Shown one piece after another: positions 4,814 to 11,109 of a stretch of DNA of 64,000 nt. Position numbers and translations under genes: made by a program. The notes under the pieces are model-generated. The model saw only the letters and a list, made by a program, of their open reading frames with translations. It searched no databases and had not been told where the DNA came from. This DNA is from Armatimonadota bacterium (GTDB lineage Bacteria; Armatimonadota; Fimbriimonadia; Fimbriimonadales; Fimbriimonadaceae), in NCBI GenBank assembly GCA_016125185.1, contig WGMG01000007.1, forward strand, positions 186,001-250,000, given 5' to 3'. Numbering within the stretch: position 1 is the first letter of the stretch; every line of letters starts with the position of its first letter.

Positions 4814-5362
4814 TCACAACTGATCGATGGTCCTTCCCGTCGCAATCGAATAGCCATCTAGGCGAACGTCATGAGCCGATGCGTATTCGTCCTGAAGCTT
4901 TTGCAGAAACCACCGCTCGCACTCGCGGTACAGTCGCCAAGCTCCACGGAGCTTCCTCCCAATCAACTCGAACTCTAAGTACCCACTCTCGAGCCCGGTC
5001 CACAAAGCCTCGTCGGGTGAAATCGACGGGGAACCCAAAGGAGCAATCAAACCGGCATCCCACATCAGCAGTGGCCCCGCTCCATATCGTTGCGGCTGAA
5101 TCCGACCTTCGAAATCCAGTAGCGACTTTGCGTGGTCGCGCATCGGAAGGGCCAGCCGCCGAATCAAAGGGTTGGTGCTCGGCCCCTTGGGAATCACAAA
5201 GTCCCGCAAAGCGTTACCAAGCTCAAAACGAAAGTCGTAGTGCAGAGTCGTCGCCTGATGCAGATGGACCACGAACCGCCGGGGCGGCTCTAACCGGGAA
5301 GACGAAGTGAATGGATGCTTTGGCCGACAACCTCTCGGGCGCTGAGTGAGAGTCTCGTTCAT
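4814..5362 (-). CDS. Stand-alone LigD-type DNA 3'-phosphoesterase
   Basis: A 182-residue single-domain protein matching the phosphoesterase domain of bacterial DNA ligase D, which trims 3'-phosphates and 3'-ribonucleotides at breaks. Seen: RFVVHLHQATTLHYDFRFEL, VIPKGPSTNP, DHAKSLLDFEG, RYGAGPLLMWDAG and a C-terminal SIATGRTIDQL; the His and Asp of HLHxATxLHYDFR and the later His are the expected metal site. There is no ligase or polymerase domain, so it would process ends for another pathway. It is divergent from the mutasome genes and begins at a matching 20-bp element, which suggests joint damage induction. No ribosome-binding site precedes the ATG; TACACT stands six bases before it. Confidence 0.82.
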   Translation of the reverse strand: MNETLTQRPRGCRPKHPFTSSSRLEPPRRFVVHLHQATTLHYDFRFELGNALRDFVIPKGPSTNPLIRRLALPMRDHAKSLLDFEGRIQPQRYGAGPLLMWDAGLIAPLGSPSISPDEALWTGLESGYLEFELIGRKLRGAWRLYRECERWFLQKLQDEYASAHDVRLDGYSIATGRTIDQL

Positions 5363-5367
5363 TTATA

Positions 5368-5387
5368 TAGTGTACAAAATTCTACTA
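5368..5387. promoter_or_regulatory. TAGTR-N10-TACTA operator/promoter element, phosphoesterase side
   Basis: TAGTG-N10-TACTA on the plus strand. Read on the minus strand it is TAGTA-N10-CACTA ending five bases before the phosphoesterase ATG, and it contains the TACACT box of a leaderless promoter. Its twin at 5484-5503 has the same spacing and the same distance to its ATG. From the TAGTA to the ATG the two share 21 of 28 positions. A repressor here would cover the -10 region; LexA is the obvious candidate by gene content, but no LexA gene is in the window. Confidence 0.6.
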
Positions 5388-5483
5388 TTAATGACAAGGG
5401 CGCTGATTCGCAATCTAGGCGCGTCACGGGTACAAACCGACGTCCCTATTTTCGGCGATAAGCTCAAAGCCTCTAAACATTAT

Positions 5484-5503
5484 TAGTAGACTTATATATA
5501 CTA
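5484..5503. promoter_or_regulatory. TAGTA-N10-TACTA operator/promoter element, mutasome side
   Basis: A perfect five-base inverted repeat with a ten-base spacer, ending five bases before an ATG at 5509. It includes TATACT (5497-5502) six bases before that ATG, so it overlaps a leaderless promoter. It mirrors the element at 5368-5387 in front of the divergent phosphoesterase. Confidence 0.6.
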
Positions 5504-5508
5504 TTTTC

Positions 5509-5595
5509 ATGAAAATTCTCACGTGCGCCCGAGAATGGACAAAGCAAACGATCAGCGACCTTACTGAAACCAGCCGTCAGGGCTACGTGCCCTGA
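5509..5595 (+). CDS. 28-residue leader ORF ahead of the ImuB-like gene
   Basis: A short ORF beginning MKILTCAREWTKQ and ending RQGYVP. It starts five bases after the shared 20-bp element with a TATACT box in leaderless position, and its TGA overlaps the ATG of the next gene by one base (TGATG), so translation of imuB is probably coupled to it. The position is the one occupied by imuA or lexA in other mutasome cassettes, but I see no resemblance to either. It could be a leader needed only to bring ribosomes to imuB. Confidence 0.45.
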   Translation: MKILTCAREWTKQTISDLTETSRQGYVP

Positions 5596-6755
5596 TGTCC
5601 AAGTCGAAATTCATTCTTTGGATCGAGCTGGCGCACTTCTATGTTCGAAATGAAAACCCGAATCTGCCCGAGGTCATCGTTCGCGATGACGTTGTTCTGG
5701 ATACCAACGATCTAGCCAAAGACCGAGGTGTCACCATCGGCATGCCCGTCAAGCAGGCTAAAGCGATTCTAAAAGAAGGCGTCTTTCTGCCGTGGGAGAG
5801 TGAGCGCTATGCCTCCAAGCAGTCCGCCTGGATGGATGAATGTATTGCCTTTTCCGACGTGATTGAACCTGCCGACCAGCATGCGCTATGGATCGACCTC
5901 TCGCAACACCCCGAGCCATTCGAAGTTGCAGAAACGCTGATCCGGCACCTGAGCCATCAAACCGACCATGTGGTCTTATCGGGTATTGCCCAGGCAAAAT
6001 GGATTGCTCGTCTTGCCGCTCGTTGTGGGACTGGCCCCTCACCCCTCACTGACCCGAAAGGCTTCCTCTCTGAGCTTTCCGTGCATCATCTCGTCCCTGC
6101 CGCGCTTGAACACCGTCAGCGACTGCATTTCCTTGGCTATGCGAAGATTGGGAGGGTTGCCGCTATCCCATTCGATGTACTTCAGGAGCAATTTGGCGAG
6201 GACGCATACCAAATTGCCCGCGCCGCCGAAGGAACGTTAAGTGACGAGGTCGAAGCTAGCTATCCTCCAAAGTCTTGTTTGGCGAAGTTTACATTTGAGG
6301 GTGTCGCCGATACGGAAGAGGTTCTGCAAAACGGTCTCGCAAAGCTCGCGCAGGAGCTAGGTGATCGCCTTGATCGGCAAAGCCAGCAAGGGAACGCGAT
6401 GACGGCCACGCTTGAATTTGAGGAGAAACCGCCCCTCACACTCCAGCGAACCTTTTCTAAGCCGTACCAGGATGCCAGATCGGTTTACATATGCTTGAAT
6501 CTTCTCCTGGGTGATGCCCTCGAAACCCCCATCACCGTCGTTCACGCCGCACTGACCGAACTCTGCAAAACAGGAGCCGTCCAGGAGTCGTTCCTCGATG
6601 CCGCCAGTTCTCGCCTACCCCGTAAGTTCGAATCAAGCCTCCGACGGATTCGAGCGGTCTTTGGCGATCGGTCGGTGCAAAGAGGACAAGAAATTCAACT
6701 GCCGCGACGCGTCCGCGTCTTGCGCGAATGGAAGCATGCGACGGGATGGCGATGA
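5595..6755 (+). CDS. imuB: ImuB-like, Y-family polymerase-related mutasome protein
   Basis: A 386-residue protein of the DinB/ImuB family. Seen: an N-terminal LWIELAHFYVRNENPNLPEVIV in place of the polymerase DxDxFFAxVE motif, GVTIGMPVKQAKAIL as in the Y-family palm, and a later VIEPADQHALWIDLS where active enzymes have SIDEAYLD. The first metal Asp is Glu, the second acidic position is Ala, and the DE pair is DQ, so it is probably catalytically dead, as ImuB is. Family knowledge: ImuB bridges the beta clamp to DnaE2 for error-prone bypass. Its 3' end overlaps dnaE2 by 20 bases. No imuA is present nearby. Confidence 0.75.
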   Translation: MSKSKFILWIELAHFYVRNENPNLPEVIVRDDVVLDTNDLAKDRGVTIGMPVKQAKAILKEGVFLPWESERYASKQSAWMDECIAFSDVIEPADQHALWIDLSQHPEPFEVAETLIRHLSHQTDHVVLSGIAQAKWIARLAARCGTGPSPLTDPKGFLSELSVHHLVPAALEHRQRLHFLGYAKIGRVAAIPFDVLQEQFGEDAYQIARAAEGTLSDEVEASYPPKSCLAKFTFEGVADTEEVLQNGLAKLAQELGDRLDRQSQQGNAMTATLEFEEKPPLTLQRTFSKPYQDARSVYICLNLLLGDALETPITVVHAALTELCKTGAVQESFLDAASSRLPRKFESSLRRIRAVFGDRSVQRGQEIQLPRRVRVLREWKHATGWR

Positions 6756-9700
6756 GGTCCTCGCGCATTGGCGAGAAATCGGACAGTGGTGGGAGCGTGA
6801 AAGCCCACTTGAGTATCGTCGATTCGTTGACTCAATGGGGACTATTCGGGAAGAGCATAACGCCTTTCAATATCGTCGAGAAGCCCGGACCCTCGAGCGC
6901 CTGAGCCAAATGATGCGGGTGCGCGACGAGAAGGTCGCGAAGGCAATGGGCTATGCCCCTGAGCCCAACTATCAATCATTCAAACACGATGATGTCGACC
7001 CAGAACCGTACGCACTCCTCTTCGCCCAAAGTGGCTGCGCTTTCGGGCGTTCGACCATGGCCGTGCAGGACATCTTTTCCTATGCCGAAACTCAAAGCTA
7101 CGAAGCCACCCTCCTTGCCGATCCGTTCTCACTAGTAGGTGCCGTCGAGTTCGCCAAAGTTGCCCGCGAGCTTGAACGTAAACCGCTGATCGGGGCCGCG
7201 TTCGAAATGGAGGAAGGGGGCGAAATCGTCCTTGTCGCCCAAACCAAAGTCGGATATCGCAGCCTTTCGCGCCTCATTACCGCCTGCCACCAAGACGAGC
7301 CTCGCCTGTATCCGCTCTGCACTTGGGAGCGGTTGGAACGCCATTGTGAGGACCTTCTCTGCCTGACCGGAGGCGACAACGGGCCGATCAATCGCCTCAT
7401 CACCAAAGACTGCGTGGACGATGCCGAAGCCTATCTTGATCGTTTTATCGGGCTGTACGGAGCCCACAAAGTTTTCGTTCAAATAGAACGCTGCTACCTT
7501 CCGTGGGAGATTCGCACCAACCGGATCCTCCTCGACCTCGCAGAAAGCCGAAAGCTCACTGCCGTTGCAGGCAATGGCGTTACCCACCATAATCCGGCCG
7601 ATTTTCCCGCCCAGGACATGCTGGTCTGCATCGAAACCCTTTGCGGGATCGAGGAAATCGTGGGTCGAAAACCTCTTCGCACTCTTGGGCAACCGCCCAT
7701 CGTCGAACGGCCGAGACGCGCGCTTAACGCCGAGCGATACCTCCGCTCCGCATCTCAGATGCGCGAGCTCTTTGCTGATCGACCGGACCTGCTAAATAAC
7801 ACCAAAAGACTCTCCGACCTCTGTGATGGTCACGTCTTGCCCACTCGTACCCAATTGCCCCAATTCGATGAGAACGAAGCCAAGAAGCTCCGTTCAATCG
7901 TCCGCGAGGAAAGCCGTGGACTCCCGCGCTGGCTCTCAAAGTCTACGCTCCCGAGAAAATGGCAACTGGAACTTGAACTGAAACGCATCATCGATCGCGG
8001 CTTCGCCGGACACTTTCTGGTCGCATGGGACATGTGCCGGTGGGCCAAATCCCAGGGCATCGTCTTCAGCGGGCGTGGGTCGGTGGTGGATTCCGCAGTC
8101 GCTTACTGCCTCGGACTTTCGCGCATCGATGCCTACGAGCATGATCTCCACTTTGATCGGTTCCTGCCTCCCGAGGACGATAGCAAGCGCCCAGATATCG
8201 ATATTGACTTCGAAGCCCGTCGCCGGGACGATGTGAGGAACTACTTAGTGCAAAAATACGGACCGGAGCACGTCGCGACCGTTGGGGCCATTGGCACCTT
8301 CAACACGCGCGGCATCGTTCGCGAGGTTGGCAAAGTTCTTGGCATCCCGCCTGAAGACCTCAGTTATCTCGCCAAGCGCATCCACGGAAGTGTGAGCCCC
8401 GCCCGCATCGAAGCTGCCATTGAGGCCAAGCCGGAGTTGCGTAACAGCAACATTCCTCGCGAACGCTTTCATCTTGTTTTCGACCTTGCCAAGGTCCTCC
8501 AAGATATCCCGCGCAACCTCCGGGCGCACTCCTCCGGTGTCGTCATCTCGCGCGATCCCATAGCCGACACTGTGCCCGTCGTTCCGTCTGCCGTCGACGG
8601 TATACAGATTCTTCAATGGGACAAACGAAGCGCTAAGTATTACTTCGACAAATTCGACATTCTGTGCCTGCGCGGTAACGATGTGCTGTCGGACGCGATG
8701 GACCGGATTCAAGCCCATACACCGGATTTCTCTGTCTTCAACCTACCCCTTGATGACGAAAATGTGTATCGCACGATGCGTACTGGAGAACTCATCGGCG
8801 TTCCCCAATCCGCCTCGCCAGCAATGCGCCAAGCTCATATCCGCATCAAAACTAAGAACCTCAAGGAGGCTAGCCTCGTCCAGGCTGGGATTCGCCCCGG
8901 TGTTGGTGGCGCCGTCAAACTGAATGAACTTATCCTCCGTAAAAATGGCAAGAAGCCGGTCCCCGATACGCACCCTCTCCTGCAAAAAATCCTCGGCAAC
9001 ACATACGGACTCATCGTCTTCCAGGAGCAGGTTGACATGCTCCTGCAGGAATTCGGAGGCTACACCGCAGGACAAGCCGAGGAGATTCGCGAAGATATCT
9101 ACAAAAAGCGACGCGAAAAGGATGTCCAGCGCATTCACGACGAGGTTCTTGGGCAATTCCTTGAACGCGGCCACTCGCCAGAGGTTGCCGAGCAGGTCTA
9201 CAGCCTCGTCGCCCAGTTCCAAGGGTACGGCTTTGCCGAGGGCCACGCGCTTGCCTTTGCGGAGATATCTGTTCGCTCGATCTATTGCCAGCAGAACTAC
9301 CCCACCGAGTACTTTGCCGCCCTCCTCGATGCTCAACCTGCTGGCTACTATGGCCCTTGCACTTTGGTCAATGAAGCTCGCAATCGTGGCGTCGTCATCC
9401 TGCCTCCCGACGTCAACGCCAGCAATCTCAAGTACCGAGTGGAGGATGTGATCGTGGACGGAAAGCCGAGACTAGCCCTCCCAAACAAAGGCATTCGGGT
9501 TGCGCTGTCGGAAATCATGAACGTCTCGAAAAAGCTTCTCGAACGCATCGTCGAGCATCGGCGAGGCTATCCCTATACTTCGTTTTACAACTTTGTTTCG
9601 CGGGTCCACCCCAACCGGGACGAGTTGGAATGGCTCATTCTCTCCGGCGCGCTGGACGATCTGCACTCCAACCGCCGAGCAATGTTATGGGCGATCCCCA

Positions 9701-10248
9701 AAGCCCTTCGCTATGCCAACAGCGTGCGAAAAATGAACGATACGCTACCGATCTTTCTGCCCGAACCCGAAATGCCGACGGATATCCAGGACTTCAATGT
9801 TCACGAAAAAGCGGTTCAGGAACGGCGTCTGTTGGGGCTCAACGTCAAGGCGCACCTGATGGCCTTCGAACGGGAAAAGGTGAAGTCAAAAGGCGGCATC
9901 ACCTCGGCCGAGGCTAGCCGACTGCCCTCGGGAGAGAAGGCGATCGTGGTCGGCAACCCGATCCGGCTTCGATTTCCGCCGACCGAGAGCGGGAAGCGCG
10001 TGCTCTTTTTTGACCTGGAGGACGAAAGCGGCCTCCTCAACGTCACCTGCTTCGACGAAACCTACCAGCGCTACGGACATAACGTGATTTGTCACAAGTA
10101 CGTCACCTTGCGAGGCGAAGCCCAGGATCGTGATGGGCACATCGCGTTTCTGGCCTCGCATATCTTTCCGTACCACGCTGAGATATACAAACACCTCCGA
10201 GAAGACGAGAGTCTGCCATTGCCGGTGGCTGATTTCCTGGTGACCTAA
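6736..10248 (+). CDS. dnaE2: Error-prone DNA polymerase III alpha subunit, DnaE2 type
   Basis: A C-family polymerase of 1170 residues from the ATG at 6736, which overlaps imuB by 20 bases; an upstream ATG at 6598 would overlap by 158. Seen: a PHP domain from about residue 70, the catalytic PDIDIDFE with Asp near 487, 489 and 491, FSGRGSVVDSAVAYCLG, RAHSSGVVIS, VFQEQVDMLLQEFGGYT, GYGFAEGHALAFAEIS, a helix-hairpin-helix region and a C-terminal OB fold. The PHP site looks degenerate (LFAQSGCAF where LHxHSxxS is usual; LADPFSL where xTDH is usual), so no proofreading is expected. The first 60 residues (HWREIGQWWERES onward) are an extra segment resembling the tail domain found on some ImuB proteins. 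Confidence 0.88.
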   Translation: MRRDGDEVLAHWREIGQWWERESPLEYRRFVDSMGTIREEHNAFQYRREARTLERLSQMMRVRDEKVAKAMGYAPEPNYQSFKHDDVDPEPYALLFAQSGCAFGRSTMAVQDIFSYAETQSYEATLLADPFSLVGAVEFAKVARELERKPLIGAAFEMEEGGEIVLVAQTKVGYRSLSRLITACHQDEPRLYPLCTWERLERHCEDLLCLTGGDNGPINRLITKDCVDDAEAYLDRFIGLYGAHKVFVQIERCYLPWEIRTNRILLDLAESRKLTAVAGNGVTHHNPADFPAQDMLVCIETLCGIEEIVGRKPLRTLGQPPIVERPRRALNAERYLRSASQMRELFADRPDLLNNTKRLSDLCDGHVLPTRTQLPQFDENEAKKLRSIVREESRGLPRWLSKSTLPRKWQLELELKRIIDRGFAGHFLVAWDMCRWAKSQGIVFSGRGSVVDSAVAYCLGLSRIDAYEHDLHFDRFLPPEDDSKRPDIDIDFEARRRDDVRNYLVQKYGPEHVATVGAIGTFNTRGIVREVGKVLGIPPEDLSYLAKRIHGSVSPARIEAAIEAKPELRNSNIPRERFHLVFDLAKVLQDIPRNLRAHSSGVVISRDPIADTVPVVPSAVDGIQILQWDKRSAKYYFDKFDILCLRGNDVLSDAMDRIQAHTPDFSVFNLPLDDENVYRTMRTGELIGVPQSASPAMRQAHIRIKTKNLKEASLVQAGIRPGVGGAVKLNELILRKNGKKPVPDTHPLLQKILGNTYGLIVFQEQVDMLLQEFGGYTAGQAEEIREDIYKKRREKDVQRIHDEVLGQFLERGHSPEVAEQVYSLVAQFQGYGFAEGHALAFAEISVRSIYCQQNYPTEYFAALLDAQPAGYYGPCTLVNEARNRGVVILPPDVNASNLKYRVEDVIVDGKPRLALPNKGIRVALSEIMNVSKKLLERIVEHRRGYPYTSFYNFVSRVHPNRDELEWLILSGALDDLHSNRRAMLWAIPKALRYANSVRKMNDTLPIFLPEPEMPTDIQDFNVHEKAVQERRLLGLNVKAHLMAFEREKVKSKGGITSAEASRLPSGEKAIVVGNPIRLRFPPTESGKRVLFFDLEDESGLLNVTCFDETYQRYGHNVICHKYVTLRGEAQDRDGHIAFLASHIFPYHAEIYKHLREDESLPLPVADFLVT

Positions 10249-10249
10249 G

Positions 10250-10519
10250 CTAACTCTGCGGAGTCTCGCTGTCCAATTCTCGAATCTTCGCCCGTAATCG
10301 CTCCATCGCCTCTGTCGGCGGAAGATCCTGCTTCGTGTCATGCATCACCGAAAGCATCGTCTTCAGCCGCTTCAGAAAATTGCCGCAGTGACTGCAATGC
10401 GTCACATGAAACAGAACAAACGCCTTGCGGATGCCGCGCACCGACCCGTCCGCCACGCCCTGAAGCAGATTCTCCATGTGCTTGCACGGAGGTCCTTCGG
10501 AATTCTTCTCTTGCTTCAT
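10250..10519 (-). CDS. Zinc-finger anti-sigma factor
   Basis: An 89-residue soluble protein with the ZAS motif H-x3-C-x2-C (HVTHCSHC), preceded by CKHMENLLQGVADG. Family knowledge: such proteins hold an ECF sigma factor inactive, often responding to oxidation of the zinc cysteines. It follows directly after the sigma gene, the usual arrangement. I chose the ATG at 10519, which has AAAGGA nine bases upstream; a GTG at 10543 would touch the sigma stop codon. There is no membrane segment, so sensing is probably cytosolic. It converges on dnaE2 with one base between stops. Confidence 0.78.
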   Translation of the reverse strand: MKQEKNSEGPPCKHMENLLQGVADGSVRGIRKAFVLFHVTHCSHCGNFLKRLKTMLSVMHDTKQDLPPTEAMERLRAKIRELDSETPQS

Positions 10520-10543
10520 ATCAATAATCCTTTCATTGTCCAC

Positions 10544-11056
10544 TTACGACTGGTAAATCCCCACAAGCTTGTGCCGCAAAATACGTCGTCCCCGAAAAAC
10601 TCGCGATCGGATCGTCCCAATCGGAACACCTAAAACATCGGCTGCCGACTCGTACGTCATCTCTTCCAGATCGCACAGCGTCACCGCTACTCGATATTCT
10701 TCGGGCAGTTCGTCCACCGCGTTCACCACATCCTTTACATCCATCTGCACGTCGATCACTTTCCAAAAGTTCTCGTCGGCAGGCTCGGTGGTGGCTTCCA
10801 TATCGACTTCCGATCGCACTTTGCGCTTTCGGAGCAGGTATAGCCATTCGTTGTTCAGGATTCGGATCAGCCAGCTTCGTGGGTGCTTCCCGTCGAAGTC
10901 GTCCCAGTGCTTGAAGGCGTTCAGAAGGGTCTGGCTGACGATGTCTTCGGCGTCTGCGTCGTTGAGGGTCATTCGCCTCGCCACCCGATACAGCACTTCG
11001 AGTTCTCGTTCGAGAACTACGGCGGCGGATTCTTTCTTTGCGGGCGAGTGAAGCAT
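10544..11056 (-). CDS. ECF-type RNA polymerase sigma factor
   Basis: A 170-residue sigma factor. Seen: region 2 (LYRVARRMTLNDADAEDIVSQTLLNAF, then HPRSWLIRILNNEWLYLLRKRK) and region 4 (VDELPEEYRVAVTLCDLEEMTYESAADVLGVPIGTIRSRVFRGRR). It is followed by a zinc anti-sigma gene and preceded by two DM13 genes. I chose the ATG at 11056; a GTG at 11101 would place the extra codons over a strong hairpin at 11072-11095. An ECF-type promoter at 12481-12504 before the first DM13 gene suggests that the factor transcribes its own operon. Confidence 0.88.
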   Translation of the reverse strand: MLHSPAKKESAAVVLERELEVLYRVARRMTLNDADAEDIVSQTLLNAFKHWDDFDGKHPRSWLIRILNNEWLYLLRKRKVRSEVDMEATTEPADENFWKVIDVQMDVKDVVNAVDELPEEYRVAVTLCDLEEMTYESAADVLGVPIGTIRSRVFRGRRILRHKLVGIYQS

Positions 11057-11071
11057 GTCTCTAGTGGGCAG

Positions 11072-11095
11072 GGGCGTCCCAACCAAGGGACGCCC
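11072..11095. terminator. Intercistronic hairpin between DM13 and sigma genes
   Basis: GGGCGTCCC-AACCAA-GGGACGCCC, perfect nine-base arms, in the 53-base gap between the small DM13 gene and the ECF sigma gene. No T run follows on the minus strand, so it is more likely an mRNA stabiliser or a partial attenuator that keeps sigma levels below DM13 levels. Confidence 0.5.
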
Positions 11096-11109
11096 AGTCA
11101 CGATTCCGG

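Follow-up and report, generated by a model that had tools for sequence, protein, structure and literature searches.

In the genome of a bacterium of the phylum Armatimonadota (order Fimbriimonadales; contig WGMG01000007.1), a stretch of 64,000 nucleotides, here called the window, holds a gene for a stand-alone LigD-type 3'-phosphoesterase and, diverging from it across a gap of 146 bp, an ImuB/DnaE2 cassette; two similar elements lie in the gap. We propose that these twin elements are operators for the LexA protein of this lineage, one on each of two divergent promoters, and that they place the phosphoesterase and ImuB-DnaE2 under common control, a reading to which, from sequence comparison, we give a probability of about 0.88. 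An earlier note on positions 4814-10248 had suggested such joint control and had taken the element for the LexA-type box of the lineage, to be given up if the element were absent before recA and lexA or not conserved before imuB in relatives. Neither proved to be the case, as an operator precedes recA, a half-site precedes lexA and the box is kept before imuB across the order, which supports the suggestion.

The minus-strand element occupies 5368-5387 (TAGTGTACAAAATTCTACTA as written on the plus strand) and its plus-strand counterpart 5484-5503, and a recount upheld the geometry first described, including the width of the gap: five bases separate the end of each element from an ATG (at 5362 on the minus strand and 5509 on the plus strand), and the two copies agree at 21 of 28 positions from element to ATG. 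The ATG at 5509, however, does not start imuB; it belongs to an open reading frame (ORF) of 28 codons, imuB itself starting at 5595. Allowing at most one mismatch, TAGTR-N10-TACTA has four matches in the window against 0.52 expected, these being the two elements each counted on both strands, and none of 100 shuffled sequences reaches four. In the whole genome of 4.52 Mb the exact pattern is found in four places only, and the two beyond the window share an inner GTAGAC and TAYACT, letters which N10 had left free. The element is thus real, but its outer TAGTA and TACTA are a mere rim, and after the genome and order-wide scans we dropped TAGTA-N10-TACTA as the definition of the motif in favour of the inner GTAGAC dyad. 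The consensus operator is T(A/G)GTAGAC-N4-GTCTAC(C/T)A, with the core TAGAC-N4-GTCTA, and both sites in the window are imperfect copies of it; read from the left half they are TAGTAGAC-TTAT-ATATACTA on the plus strand (5484-5503) and TAGTAGAA-TTTT-GTACACTA on the minus strand (5387-5368).

Elsewhere in the same genome recA carries TACTAGACACGCGTCTATAA, and the promoter of lexA, which encodes the one LexA of this genome, a canonical protein with LexA_DNA_bind and Peptidase_S24 domains, has three GTAGAC half-sites, with GGTAGAC/GTCTACC lying between and after the -35 and -10 boxes. A relaxed pattern gives sites before two DinB_2 genes, the gene for DNA polymerase IV (Pol IV) and ruvB, of which the last two are preceded by the palindrome TGGTAGAC-N4-RTCTACCA; weaker sites precede another DinB_2 gene and tagI, and the exact GTAGAC-N4-GTCTAC occurs once, before a gene for an AlkB-type dioxygenase (alkB). 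Scans allowing three mismatches in 16 were mostly noise, the reversed control giving 78 matches against 25, and we used only those matches for which there was an independent reason.

The relatives searched were 113 genomes of the order Fimbriimonadales, 105 of which have a LexA DNA-binding domain. The pattern TRGTAGACNNNNRTNYACYA has 109 matches among those listed, compared with 9 for its reversed control, which by hand count makes it about 12 times commoner, and the genes neighbouring the matches are those for ImuB, DnaE2, Pol IV, SSB, SRAP, an SPL-like radical SAM protein, DinB_2 and a recurring small helix-turn-helix (HTH) protein. Together with ruvB, alkB and tagI, all of these except the last form the regulon of repair and translesion genes which the box marks. 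Upstream of imuB, 51 of 63 regions score at least 12 of 16 letters, with about 1.6 expected from shuffled sequences, and the 30 regions upstream of recA, scored on the ten-letter core, reach at least 9 in 11 cases (0.2 expected) and at least 8 in 23 (3.3 expected).

Outside the order the comparison was made with LexA, as the alignment of ImuB is too diverse for a scan of named genomes; the closest LexA among them is that of a Fimbriimonas sp. (85%), and the placing of the window's genome in Fimbriimonadales follows from this comparison. Before lexA, GTAGAC is found in all 24 of the named Armatimonadota genomes, and either GTAGAC or GTCTAC in 5 of 56 named genomes of other phyla (hand count), many of which show GAAC-N4-GTT(C) there instead. 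Within the order TTGACA-N-GTAGAC..TATAAT is conserved in the lexA promoters, and GTCTAC often follows 18 bases further along. Half-sites stand at other spacings before lexA and at N4 before the phosphoesterase gene, imuB, recA and other genes. In lexA promoters such as L015, L036, L044 and L049 the -35 box is immediately followed by GTAGAC, GTCTAC lies behind the -10 box, and at times another GTAGAC is present downstream. The recognition-helix region of LexA, SLRGVTVHLDAL, is invariant in the nine sequences aligned and nearly so in the other LexAs compared, as would be expected where the box is conserved.

The phosphoesterase genes offer a comparison within one protein family. LigD_N was found in 37 of the 113 genomes, and eight (G000, G009, G015, G019, G056, G088, G089 and G092) have it as a stand-alone phosphoesterase. 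All eight of these genes have a box within about 200 bp upstream, matching 13 of 16 letters at the window gene, 14 at three relatives, 12 at three and 11 at one, which supports joint control with ImuB/DnaE2. By contrast, the box is absent from all 27 full-length ligD genes that could be assigned a start, none of which scores above 10; the difference is significant even if the weakest phosphoesterase site is taken as absent (Fisher p 1e-6). When phosphoesterase promoters were chosen by the left half only, the right half at N4 matched 4.0 of 6 letters, compared with a median of 1.6 over all spacings.

In the window each element occupies the 17-bp spacer and the -10 box of a sigma-70-type promoter (Table 1), TTGTCA-N17-TACACT for the phosphoesterase and TAAACA-N17-TATACT for the cassette, and on both sides six bases separate the -10 box from the ATG. 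Because the -10 box is so close, leaderless starts are likely. In the mechanism we propose, a dimer of LexA, which we infer to be the binding protein, would lie on each box between -35 and -10 and over the -10 hexamer, blocking RNA polymerase; DNA damage would activate RecA and so lead to LexA self-cleavage, and the loss of LexA would open both promoters together, inducing the stand-alone phosphoesterase on one side and ImuB and DnaE2 on the other. The phosphoesterase, if catalytically active, might then ready 3' ends for DnaE2 or Pol IV.

Table 1. Features of the divergent locus, in window coordinates
Feature	Position	Strand	Remarks
Stand-alone LigD-type 3'-phosphoesterase, 182 amino acids	4814..5362	-	Pfam LigD_N E 4.9e-26; matches 3n9b/2lj6/5dmp
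Phosphoesterase operator (proposed LexA box), TAGTAGAATTTTGTACACTA	5368..5387	-	13/16 letters of TRGTAGAC-N4-GTCTACYA
-10 hexamer TACACT, phosphoesterase promoter	5369..5374	-	within operator right half; 6 nt to ATG
-35 hexamer TTGTCA, phosphoesterase promoter	5392..5397	-	spacer 17
-35-like hexamer TAAACA (4/6), cassette promoter	5474..5479	+	spacer 17
Operator (proposed LexA box) for leader ORF-imuB-dnaE2 transcription, TAGTAGACTTATATATACTA	5484..5503	+	14/16 letters; box kept before imuB in relatives
-10 hexamer TATACT, cassette promoter	5497..5502	+	within operator right half
Leader ORF of 28 codons, MKILTCAREWTKQTISDLTETSRQGYVP	5509..5595	+	TGA overlaps imuB ATG as TGATG
ImuB-like inactive Y-family polymerase, 386 amino acids	5595..6755	+	Pfam IMS and IMS_C
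DnaE2-type error-prone Pol III alpha subunit	6736..10248	+	start inferred; ORF open from 6598

The identification of the cassette as ImuB/DnaE2 is borne out by its domains. Besides the domains of ImuB listed in the table, DnaE2 has the Pfam domains DNA_pol3_alpha, finger and PHP and matches the profiles PRK05672 (error-prone DNA polymerase, E 1.4e-175) and PRK05673 (E 1.2e-187). The catalytic acids of ImuB are not kept among its orthologues, pointing to a catalytically dead Y-family protein. An ImuB-C extension is not recognisable, IMS_C ending at residue 332 with some 54 amino acids remaining, though no dedicated ImuB-C profile was run; likewise the cassette holds no imuA, only the 28-codon ORF preceding imuB, the search for imuA having covered the cassette and not the rest of the genome. 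We looked for conservation of the 28-residue leader peptide in the relatives compared and saw none; through the TGATG overlap its ORF could serve to link imuB translation to a message without a leader.

Some further observations concern the surroundings of the cassette and the box. Adjoining dnaE2 on the minus strand (10250-11101 of the window) are an apparent extracytoplasmic function (ECF)-type sigma factor (10544-11101) and then a small possible anti-sigma factor (10250-10543), as read by eye from the translations. At G056:C1:29387-29929 several stop codons interrupt imuB, and the stand-alone phosphoesterase of that genome keeps its box. The recurring HTH protein, of about 140 amino acids and with an HTH resembling sigma region 4 (weak Pfam Sigma70_r4 matches), follows the SOS box in many genomes of the order (L357:791-1243(-), L338:1307-1747(+), L263:1533-1946(+); also L284, L320, L321, L332, L335, L336, L339, L351, L353 and L354) and is possibly a second-tier SOS regulator. 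In the window's genome an SOS box accompanies a perfect TTGACA-N17-TACACT promoter (L002:1493-1540; C6:1558139) that is not directly followed by any clear gene; a gene with a Clp_N domain begins about 200 bp further on, and a small RNA or small protein may be encoded there.

Turning to the phosphoesterase itself, its description as a LigD-type enzyme without ligase is confirmed, as the protein has neither a polymerase nor a ligase domain. In the window's genome we found no Ku, and the only LigD_N match is the stand-alone gene, so that a full-length LigD is lacking and Ku-LigD end joining is not encoded. For this reason, judged from gene content and promoter, the enzyme is here a member of the Fimbriimonadales SOS regulon and not a part of end joining. 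A Ku match is absent from six of the eight genomes with a stand-alone phosphoesterase, this one included; the remaining two, G009 and G015, carry Ku as well as a separate LigD. The window enzyme keeps the Mn triad (H35, H41 and D43) together with R45 and H77, and all eight stand-alone proteins keep the triad, Arg52 and His84. Seven of the eight have another residue in place of Glu82 (Arg in the window protein), and four have Leu or Cys in place of Tyr88, the window protein having Leu. In Pseudomonas aeruginosa LigD, activity requires Tyr88, and the phosphatase step requires Glu82 (PMC8656161), and the replacement of these residues makes the exact activity of the window enzyme uncertain. A recent origin of the stand-alone proteins by truncation of LigD is unsupported, since the tree splits them from all LigD phosphoesterase domains (98/97, with long branches).

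As to the role of the phosphoesterase beside the mutasome, one possibility, which we consider evenly balanced between true and false, is that the box is indeed a LexA operator but that the phosphoesterase is merely another SOS gene without any working link to the mutasome, so that its adjacency to imuB in the window is due to chance. Consistent with this, the two genes adjoin in only two of the eight genomes with a stand-alone phosphoesterase, G088 has a boxed phosphoesterase gene and no imuB match, and the imuB of G056 is a broken copy. On the other hand, the two adjacencies are differently built: divergent in the window's genome and, in G009, which belongs to a second genus, an operon of box, phosphoesterase, imuB and dnaE2 on one strand, in which the phosphoesterase stop overlaps the imuB start. 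Two distinct arrangements speak for the pairing being under selection, at least in these genomes. On the simplest view the enzyme would prepare blocked 3' ends for DnaE2, a view that finds its best support in the G009 operon. A stronger version, in which the phosphoesterase of Fimbriimonadales is a working partner of the mutasome and clears damaged sites of blocked or ribonucleotide 3' ends, allowing extension by DnaE2 under the guidance of inactive ImuB, we put forward tentatively and would rather doubt than expect. If true, mutagenic synthesis would contain an SOS-controlled end-healing step borrowed from the end-joining toolkit without Ku or ligase.

Several observations weigh against the box being a LexA operator of this form. 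The half-sites at lexA are not at N4, part of the family has only weak recA boxes or none that could be found, and about one fifth of imuB genes score below 12. In addition, the right half coincides with the -10 hexamer in the window boxes, so that the promoter could account for part of its conservation, and it runs into the start codon of imuB in many relatives. The spacing at lexA, with GTAGAC half-sites 18 or other numbers of bases apart, would be in keeping with the box belonging to a second damage-responsive repressor or activator whose regulon overlaps that of LexA, lexA having its own arrangement of half-sites; moreover, some SOS-like regulons are run by proteins other than LexA (PMC8565304), Deinococcus being an example (PMC8072749). 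We regard this as improbable, given that the letters GTAGAC/GTCTAC are the same at lexA, recA, imuB and the phosphoesterase gene, that the N4 form is found at recA and that nearly all of the 113 genomes searched have a LexA DNA-binding domain. That the likeness is simply that of two ordinary promoters, with a -10 box in the right half and AT-rich spacers, is scarcely credible and was rejected, as GTAGAC is not a promoter hexamer, the pattern far exceeds its reversed control and marks repair genes across the order, and promoters of full-length ligD lack it.

Read as a LexA operator, the element would give the order Fimbriimonadales a LexA box of its own, which looks undescribed, and a new SOS member in the stand-alone phosphoesterase. 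By 2021, 17 LexA DNA signatures had been reported (PMC8565304), and a GTAGAC-type box was not found among the LexA motifs named in PMC8565304, PMC7739468 and PMC9578287. In a partial search of the literature, which leaves room for an earlier report, we found no LexA box for Armatimonadota and no text naming LexA with Fimbriimonas, those pairing Armatimonadetes or Armatimonadota with LexA being, by title, community or review papers; nor was a phosphoesterase mentioned in the SOS literature examined. The LexA signature changes between phyla, and with every new box the regulon of another phylum can be read. Here the box would also add to the SOS response, in free-standing form and mainly in genomes lacking Ku, a class of enzyme familiar from end joining, and what a 3'-phosphoesterase does apart from end joining becomes directly testable.

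The box resembles the LexA boxes of other phyla in its form, a dyad or repeat, in its place at the promoters of recA, lexA and genes for error-prone polymerases, and in the kind of regulon. It shares the N4 spacer of the Gram-positive box CGAAC-N4-GTTCG (PMC9578287) and, because the spacing is equal, may derive from it by a change of half-site; it differs in the half-site, (A/G)GTAGAC rather than CGAAC, and in the wider spacing at Fimbriimonadales lexA. The other boxes compared were E. coli TACTG(TA)5CAGTA, Caulobacter GTTC-N7-GTTC, Balneolaeota TTACACATATTTTWTACATA and Bacteroidetes CTAA-N5-TTAG. With the ImuA-ImuB-DnaE2 mutasome and its ImuA-less variants (Timinskas and Venclovas, 2019; PMC6511836) the cassette has in common an inactive Y-family protein beside DnaE2 and an SOS-type box; lacking imuA and a recognisable ImuB-C, it comes closest to the DinB2-DnaE2 type of S. 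coelicolor, but unlike the known mutasomes it is tied to a phosphoesterase, divergently here and as the first operon gene in G009. The stand-alone proteins belong by sequence family, Mn triad, Arg52 and His84 to the LigD 3'-phosphoesterase superfamily (3n9b; archaeal phosphoesterases), and differ from it in being free-standing and SOS-boxed and in the replacements at Glu82 and Tyr88. Finally, SOS operons with Ku and an ATP-dependent ligase (Aravind et al., 2013; PMC3765255) likewise set end-repair genes beside SOS translesion genes, but where those operons have Ku and ligase, the window locus has only the end-cleaning domain.

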